From Daphnia pulex (Eukaryota > Arthropoda > Branchiopoda > Diplostraca > Daphniidae), in assembly GCF_021134715.1 (NCBI RefSeq), contig NC_060018.1:4481501-4545500 (forward strand): a stretch of 64,000 nucleotides of DNA, given 5' to 3'. The notes under the pieces were generated by a model. That model was not told where the DNA came from. It did not search any database and saw nothing but the letters and a program-made list of their open reading frames with translations. Position numbers and translations under genes: made by a program. Positions 59,527 to 62,500 of the stretch are shown one piece after another; positions within the stretch are counted from its first letter, which is position 1, and every line of letters begins with the position of its first letter.

Positions 59527-62500
59527 TCACTCGGTACCGATCACTTCTGAGGAACCAGCGACTGCCATCGATTCAACAAAGCTTATGACTTCCTTGTAAA
59601 CGAGTTCTGTTCAAGAGAAGACACATATGAATACAGATTGATAGCGCATCAAACTTGAATTGTCTATATGCAGATTTTTTAAATTTAAATACGACCTTTT
59701 CTATTACTATTCTAATGTTGCAAATTTACTTTACATGGACTAAAGAACTACTGCCATTTCATTAATAGATGACAAAAGTGTTCCAAGTTTTTTCAAAAGT
59801 GATTTCATTAAAAAATGAACCATACCTTTCCATTCTTCAACTGTGAGGTCCATGTCTTCAAACGACTGGTCGTAAGGATGGGACGTGGGCTCATCACTTG
59901 GATCGGCGTATTGAGCCAAATATGGATGTGCCAAAGCTTCTTCGGCGTTAATTCGCTTGTCTGCATCAAGCTCAAGAGTTTTCTCCAATAAATCAATCGC
60001 TATTTCAAGAAATGATCAAACAAAATTTTAAATCAGAACGTGAGATATAACACGATCACGCCACAAACGATTACCTAAAGGGCTGGCGCCTTTGAAAACT
60101 TGTTTAAAATCTTTCCTTTTCATCGGTGGAAGTGAGCGGATGTAGTTTCTTGCCTGTATCAGGATAAAACATTTTACAATTGAAGAAATCTAATTATCAC
60201 GTAGAAAGAAACTGGCGAAAAAATGAGCGACATGTACGTCTTGACTTGGCAATAACAAAAGCTTAATCAAGAACGTAAATTAGCACAACAAAAAGCAAGT
60301 ATCGACATTCGACAATGAGGATCATACGTATGTTGATACGTTAGAAAAGCATTCATTCACATTAACAGCTTAAAACGGCCGGAGAAGAAATGCTAAAAAA
60401 TTTTGGAATCGCCTTTAATGCTTTCAAGCAAGCGACCTGGTTTACAGATTTAAGTGCATTCACACTGAAATGAAGATTCCCATCGTGTAACGCAGAAGGC
60501 GTGAAAATAAAATTGAAAAAAAAAAGAAAAAAAAGAAAAAGACTGAGTAGAAAATGGCTTGCCGACTTACTTCCTCACTAGAGATTTTTGAAAGAAACTC
60601 GTCGTCGGGTTTGCCACATAGCCAGAGGATGCGGGTTAGCTGGTCGATGTCTATTTCAATAATGCGTGAGTCAAGGTGTTCTTGAAATGTCAAATAAGGA
60701 TCGTCAATGTCTTAATGCACACACCGATCAAAACATGGCCATCTTTATCAAAAGCTATCTAACTCTTCCCCCGATATTCTATTTTTTTCTGTACGTGCCC
60801 TGGTCATGCAGCTGTAAGATTAGTTCACTCGGTGCAAAATAGGTTAATTCGGGAATTACATTTATCAGAGTAATAGAACCTGAGATACCTCTTCACTGCC
60901 CAGCTTAACCAACAGCTCAACATTTGGCGTCCCCGTTAGTGCCATGATACGCATCAGTTGATCGATGTCTATGGGTTCCAATCAAGAAGGATAGGTAAAA
61001 GTCAACAGAAAATAATAGGGAAAAGAAACCAAGTCCCAATAGTGAAAGAAACGTAAGGAAGTTTCAGAAGAAAAATTCCAAACGCGATGAAGTTCAAGCC
61101 GACTGAAGGCAAGCTTAATGTCAACGATATGACAACAGAAGCGCACATTTGCGAGGACTAGAAAAGACTATCGCATTACAAAAGACGAACGCAATACAAA
61201 AACTACAACTATGCAAACTACGAACTACAGAGGAAAAAACGTTACATTTACGTGCAGCCCATACATCAAGCGGAAAATATAAGCGTGAGTGTGAAGCCGG
61301 AAGAAACTAATAATTACCGAATCACTGCTGATTTTGTCCATAAATTCTTCTGATGGTTTACCCAAAAGTTCCATGATTAGGTTCAGTTGTTGAATGTCTA
61401 TGATAGTGCGGCGAAGAGGAGGAGAAGGGAACGTTGGGTCAAGGTTTAATAAAAGCTCAAAAACGCATTTTCAAACCTGATCATAACTAAGCTATCCATG
61501 CAATCATCAAATGTGCAATTATCTTTCCTTACCTCAACTTCTTGAATATTTACTAGGTACTAACACATGTAATTACGACTTATCATTTAGTATTTTTTAA
61601 AAGGATACGGTCAGTTCCTGGAAAAAGTGTTCTGGATGTAAGTAATCTGGATGAAATAAAATAAAGTGTAATAAAATTATATAATAAAATAAATAAAATA
61701 AACTGATATTATTATTATTACTCTGCCATGATGCATCCAACGGACCAAATATCAACTGTTTGAGAATAACGCATCCAGTTCAACATAATCTCTGGAGCTC
61801 GGTACCTAATTGAAAATCAAATGCGCACAATTATTACCACTATTTGAAAAACAAATTGCAATTCGCAAAAATTGATACCAGCGTGTCGCCACGTAACCAG
61901 TCATCTCGGTTTCTGTCGGTCGAGCCAAACCAAAATCTAAAATTTTGAGTTCACAGTCTTCATTGACTGCTATGTTGGAAGGCTTTAAATCCTTCAGTGG
62001 TTCAAAATCATTGAATTAGTTTGTGTTGATTTAGAAATTACATTAGTCAAGAATCCTACTCTATGAATAATTCCAGCAGAGTGAATGTACTTTAGTCCAC
62101 GCAAGATTTGATAGACCAAAAATTGAACATGATCATCTGATAGTTTTTGGGTTTTTACTATGTTGTTCAAGTCAGCTCCCATCAAATGAGTGACCATGTA
62201 AACATCCTATCATGTGAAATAATAGCTCAAAAATTCACAAATCTCTTGTAAAAGACAGAAAACATGGAAATTACCTGAAAATCACTCAGTGATGAAGCAG
62301 GAGTGAAGACATCCAAGAGTCCAATCACATTCTCATGGTTCATGTGTTTTAATAACCTTAGTTCTCTGTATGTTCTTTTGGCATGAATAGCAGATTGGAA
62401 AGGACGAGCAAGTTTTTTTATAGCTACTTTGTTCTCTGTTCTTGAGTCAACTGCCGAGCTGGGTATACAAAAAAGATTTATACAATACAAATAATCAGTG

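Follow-up and report, generated by a model that had tools for sequence, protein, structure and literature searches.

The p38 MAP kinase gene of Daphnia pulex is likely to carry a three-way splicing switch, in which one of three tandem exons is chosen, entered from a U12-type donor and left through a U2-type donor. The gene lies on the minus strand of a 64-kb window (the whole stretch of DNA analysed here) in contig C2 of a genome that we searched as 133.2 Mb in 13 contigs. As rebuilt from the window, it has ten coding positions separated by GT–AG introns, with exon 7 present in three versions. The rebuilt coding sequence runs from exon 1 with the ATG (62528..62634) through exon 2 (62275..62458), exon 3 (62060..62206), exon 4 (61879..61991) and exon 5 (61722..61805) to a 38-nt constant exon 6 (61609..61646), which ends in FPGTD plus one base; beyond the exon 7 cluster it resumes with constant exon 8 (60075..60153, beginning ARNYIRSL), exon 9 (59826..59999) and exon 10 with the stop codon (59527..59606), all on the minus strand.

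The product contains a Pkinase domain (E 6.7e-66), which scores nearly equally in the three isoforms (222.8, 222.2 and 222.1 bits). Among PDB sequences it is closest to MAPK14, the best 60 of 2711 sequences all being MAPK14 (best E 2.4e-180). The translation of exon 4 contains a TGY dual phosphorylation motif, the mark of p38, in the activation loop, and by its sequence the kinase is a p38.

The neighbourhood of the gene holds other open reading frames: one with a MaoC-like domain (window 52107–52571, plus strand), one encoding an intron-free, 366-residue receptor of the rhodopsin family (52752–53852, minus strand), and one that shares the strand of p38, lies upstream of it and runs off the end of the window (63294–63998, minus strand). 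The last contains, by eye, a J-domain-like RLWHPDKF and matches nothing in Pfam at E up to 0.001.

Anatomy and reading frame of the three alternative exons

The alternative exons 7A (61318..61397), 7B (60889..60968) and 7C (60571..60650), all on the minus strand, are each 80 nt long. Their coordinates agree exactly with the three segments, each with its own AG/GT ends, described in the initial annotation; ATAG precedes each of them, and GTAATT, GTATCT or GTAAGT follows. The phases described there are also as found, with one carried base on entry and phase 0 on exit: the C carried over from exon 6 joins the AC of exon 7 to give CAC (His) as the first codon, and each exon 7 finishes on a whole codon. 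Any single exon 7 yields an in-frame coding sequence of 1086 nt and 361 amino acids. All five wrong combinations that we built stop early, after residue 240 when every exon 7 is skipped and after residue 255 for A+B, B+C, A+C and A+B+C, which agrees with the claim that only a single choice would be productive. These premature stops, at nt 720–765, lie more than 50 nt ahead of the last junction (the later junctions fall at nt 832 and 1006 in single-exon order), so decay of the wrong forms would be expected under the 50-base rule quoted in an excerpt of PMC1431701. The three exons are very probably mutually exclusive.

The introns between 7A and 7B and between 7B and 7C measure 349 and 238 nt, lengths that rule out a steric block between neighbouring splice sites. 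The variant segments follow FPGTD, in keeping with the initial annotation; its phrase 'after the activation lobe' lacks precision, as the segment sits in the C-lobe. In p38 structures, this segment corresponds to helix G and the MAPK insert.

The donor of exon 6 and the acceptors it would serve

Exon 6 very probably ends in a U12-type 5′ splice site, GTATCCTTT (61600..61608, minus strand, with ACC on the exon side). Scored with approximate U12 and U2 matrices built from consensus sequences, this donor reaches 15.2 as a U12 site, the matrix maximum, which 2 of the 7288 GT sites in the window attain, and a poor −0.8 as a U2 site. The donors of 7A, 7B and 7C score −12.4, −4.4 and −17.7 as U12 and 4.9, 4.8 and 7.3 as U2, that of 7C being the strongest U2 donor of the three, and the other donors of the gene score at most 1.9 as U12. 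All nine bases match the U12 donor consensus at the end of exon 6. The exact motif RTATCCTTT is not rare in the window (2 seen, 1.37 expected), so what counts is that it lies where the protein sequence places the end of the exon. On the exon side, positions −2/−1 read CC; AG there is the sign of a U2 intron that has been misclassified, and no validated U12 GT–AG intron is reported to carry it (PMC10853781, in excerpt).

A second exact GTATCCTTT is found at window positions 16626–16634 on the minus strand; CCTTGAG follows some 38 nt from its first base.

A U12-like branch site stands before each alternative exon: AACCTTGAC before 7A (61438..61446, branch A 42 nt from the exon), CTTCTTGAT before 7B (60981..60989, 14 nt) and CACCTTGAC before 7C (60670..60678, 21 nt), all on the minus strand and fitting only seven of nine consensus positions by eye. 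The best U12 branch scores within 8–45 nt are 9.1 for 7A, 7.0 for 7B and 9.5 for 7C, against at most 2.8 at the eight other acceptors of the gene. Compared with 6820 AG sites, the 7C score is matched by 0.45% within 8–30 nt and 0.84% within 8–45 nt, and the 7B score by 1.6% and 3.0%; the 7A score is matched by 0.94% of AG sites within 8–45 nt, and the best score within 30 nt of 7A is 0.6, which 25% of AG sites reach. U12 branch sites usually lie about 10–20 nt from the AG, and the 42 nt at 7A is unusually long. 

The short motif CCTTRAY occurs often in the window, with 30 copies against 33.7 expected. The 11-mer ACCTTGACYCA occurs twice in the 64 kb (0.03 expected), before 7A and before 7C, 768 nt apart; it is one of three direct-repeat families in the cluster, the exon starts being another. 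Genome-wide (133 Mb) it occurs 68 times (28 forward and 40 reverse) and its reversed control 82 times (42 and 40), so that it is not enriched; the pair 768 nt apart is notable, though the pattern was picked because of that pair.

The richest 12-nt window upstream holds 12 pyrimidines at 7A, 11 at 7B and 8 at 7C, with 8–10 at the eight constant acceptors. With such rich windows, 7A and 7B may have U2-type or dual acceptors, open to the major spliceosome too. The cleanest candidate for a U12 acceptor is that of 7C; the U12 case is weakest for 7A and tentative also for 7B. On balance we favour the reading in which all three acceptors are used by U12 splicing.

The genome holds one match each to U12 (100.9 bits), U6atac (71.4 bits) and U11 (82.1 bits) above the Rfam cut-offs, and two to U4atac (60.8 and 56.8 bits). 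GAGTAAGGAAAAT is present in the U12 locus and GAAAGGAGAG in the U6atac locus; we take these to be the pairing regions of the two RNAs. The U4atac matches lie at G000:C12:10333560-10333676 and G000:C9:4804784-4804900.

In the mechanism that we propose, the minor spliceosome would join exon 6, through its U12-type donor, to one of the three acceptors, and the major spliceosome would join the chosen exon 7, through its U2-type donor, to exon 8. Joins between two exons 7 would not normally form, as a U2-type donor would then have to be spliced to an acceptor that works with a U12-type one; nor would exon 6 be joined to exon 8, the acceptor of which has no U12-like branch site. Any leak would shift the frame and bring a stop before the last junction, marking the transcript as a target for decay. 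With a U12-type donor before the cluster and U2-type donors on the exons, incompatible spliceosomes are likely to be the first and main lock, with the frame as a back-up. We infer that all three exons are used; the choice among them would give three versions of p38, distinguished by a single 27-residue segment that follows FPGTD and perhaps by their preference for partners or substrates.

The initial annotation had the exclusive exons kept by the frame. An account limited to frame and decay, together with regulators, and with the U12-looking donor or its partners read by the major spliceosome, is unlikely, though it survives better than the other alternatives. The frame fits the sequence, with an early stop in every wrong combination built; 60% of human clusters hold exons of a length not divisible by three (PMC5740500, in excerpt), and the strong pyrimidine windows upstream of 7A and 7B also speak for this account. 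However, it leaves the mechanism incomplete, passing over the U12 donor before the cluster and the U2-type donors of the exons. Against it also stand the full nine-base donor match at the true exon end, the CC and poor U2 score of that same donor, and the presence at all three alternative acceptors of U12-like branch sites that the eight others lack.

Incompatibility between the spliceosomes is the likelier reading. Intron 6 also contains a U2 donor-like site, GAG/GTAAGG, with its first intron base at 61532 (minus strand), 76 nt into the intron. It ranks in the top 0.3% of GT sites, and 0.036 sites of this strength are expected in 211 nt, a figure that applies to a site found post hoc. Splicing at 61532 would put an in-frame stop into the extended exon 6; we treat the site as only a lead, pointing to a possible poison route.

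Likeness, age and number of the exon 7 copies

Across their 27 residues, 7A and 7B share 12 identities, 7A and 7C 15, and 7B and 7C 16, with pairwise BLOSUM62 scores of 56, 77 and 75 that none of 20,000 shuffles reached for any pair. A profile scan covering the window on both strands gave the three copies scores of 70–76 and the next best site 14.8; with leave-one-out profiles, each copy scores 56.5–60.8, and nothing else on the minus strand exceeds 16.8. The profile scan found no fourth copy on either strand of the window. Searched against the whole genome at E up to 1, each 27-residue segment matches itself (E 3.8e-10 to 6.8e-12), and the places matched, self included, number 2 for 7A, 2 for 7B and 3 for 7C, the others being sister exons. 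None of the three segments finds a fourth copy in the genome at that threshold, in a search that scored only the best candidates.

With an E limit of 0.001, the 361-residue A isoform matches 121 genomic places. Inside the p38 gene these are the constant exons and 7A, with 7B and 7C unlisted; the remaining matches, judged by identity, look like other kinases. In viral contigs, three stretches fit a pattern, and none of the three encodes a relative.

Differences at codon positions 1, 2 and 3 number 8, 9 and 15 between 7A and 7B, 8, 8 and 19 between 7A and 7C, and 9, 7 and 21 between 7B and 7C (26–27 sites each). The third-position excess has p = 0.037, 0.0007 and 0.00006 for the respective pairs and 4e-8 in a pooled Fisher test, in which the pairs are not independent. 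With the differences concentrated in this way at third positions, the copies look old and look to have been kept under selection as protein.

The same pattern bears on the idea that 7A alone, or a subset of the exons, is used, and that 7B, 7C or both are decaying duplicates. That 7A resembles the genome's own JNK segments most closely (65 and 69; 48–58 for 7B and 7C) lends it something; but all three copies retain the 80 nt, the frame and the splice sites, third positions differ at 15–21 of 27 sites against 7–9 at each other position, and it is 7C that has the strongest U2 donor, which makes decay of the copies quite improbable. 7B is the nearest of the three to the CSBP1 segment, with 14 identities in 27 residues where the other two have 10 each, which seems too little for a claim of common origin.

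Very unlikely, and the weakest alternative, is a choice made by competing long-range RNA pairings like that of Dscam, where docking and selector sites pick the exon: imperfect inverted repeats do exist (an arm of the one labelled I1, 17 nt and 82%, covers the 7B branch site) and intron 6 pairs at a borderline level with the intron ahead of exon 8 (equalled by 3 of 60 shuffles), but it pairs with the introns before 7B and 7C at shuffle level (27 and 30 of 60 as good), in a test that scored whole introns in one species and that short local sites could escape.

Known MAP kinase switches and the meaning of the proposed one

The CSBP1/CSBP2 pair of vertebrate MAPK14 (p38alpha) belongs to the same kinase family as the Daphnia gene. 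The MAPK14 exon pair has the same position as Daphnia exon 7 and a similar length; MAPK14 has two versions, whereas Daphnia p38 has three. The initial annotation had drawn this parallel, and the part of it that is in print is that Mapk14 has mutually exclusive exons in its catalytic domain (PMC1431701, in excerpt). A p38 MAPK holds a minor intron, according to an excerpt of PMC8199999. Should a U12 donor precede the human MAPK14 pair as well, at this same place, the Daphnia case would come closer to a known system.

Vertebrate JNK (MAPK8/9), also a MAP kinase, keeps its exons 6a and 6b exclusive by U2/U12 incompatibility at the exon flanks, where two U2-type acceptors and two U12-type donors compete (PMC8329584 and PMC3584512, in excerpt). 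Daphnia p38 would be its mirror image: in JNK the alternative exons combine U2 acceptors with U12 donors, whereas those of p38 combine U12-like acceptors with U2 donors, and there are three of them rather than two. From isoform sequences, the JNK U12 donor presumably lies at the same protein site as the donor of p38 exon 6. Five human clusters, 0.79% of all clusters, have U2/U12 incompatibility according to the excerpt of Hatje et al. 2017 (PMC5740500); they share the lock that we propose for Daphnia p38, and MAPK14 may or may not belong to them. The same excerpt contains no arthropod example of a U2/U12-incompatible cluster, and the main text of PMC9741552, which deals with how human tandem exons arose, mentions neither MAPK14 nor U12.

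The Drosophila prospero twintron, in which nested introns undergo alternative U2/U12 splicing (PMC8199999, in excerpt), resembles the Daphnia gene in that a U2 donor-like site (61532) lies inside the U12-type intron of p38. The outcomes would differ: putative use of 61532 leads to a stop, whereas the prospero alternative leads to a second homeodomain.

Within the Daphnia genome, eight loci from five fetched regions were compared by tblastn, and two JNK genes and one ERK gene were read at the site. The JNK-like genes, L024 (G000:C9:2857500-2864500) and L025 (G000:C9:2864501-2870500), adjoin on contig C9; their local intron follows NKII and has, by eye, non-U12 donors (G/GTAGCC and G/GTACAT). 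About 0.5 kb was read in each, spanning the flanking introns, and contains no second exon of the 6a/6b type. At the p38 site the ERK gene (L028) is uninterrupted; it shares the intron before ARSYLQ. Among the four MAPK genes read there (p38, two JNK and ERK), only p38 has a U12-type intron.

Among the papers listed, we recognised neither a three-exon p38 cluster nor the Daphnia case; one of them, PMC5224494, mentions MAPK14, a homologous exon and U12. The three p38 isoforms may already have been annotated automatically, and the survey in PMC10639083, which by its excerpt includes Daphnia pulicaria, may already list the intron. According to that excerpt, the pancrustacean ancestor lost many minor introns.

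In human cells, p38 activity stabilises U6atac (PMC3728624, in excerpt), and an excerpt of PMC12637451, noting that p38 holds a minor intron, proposes a p38–U12 feedback loop for human neutrophils. By analogy, p38 might be wired into its own minor-spliceosome switch, with productive mRNA made only when U12 splicing enters one of the three exons, an idea that we consider rather improbable. If it were true, the new part would be an effect of stress on the choice among three isoforms, and not just on the amount of p38. The distant branch site of 7A and its pyrimidine tract, together with the nested donor at 61532, would allow both a poison diversion and a tilted choice: low minor-spliceosome activity would then lead to a poison form through 61532 and would tilt the choice between 7A and 7B or 7C.

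Taken at its present strength, the finding is that an invertebrate p38 gene probably contains a three-way, U12-locked exon switch. Such a switch would be a three-way mirror image of the vertebrate JNK lock, in a pancrustacean. It would give a concrete reason why one minor intron survives in a lineage reported to have lost many, and it would make Daphnia a model animal for the link between a stress kinase, the minor spliceosome and the choice of isoform.
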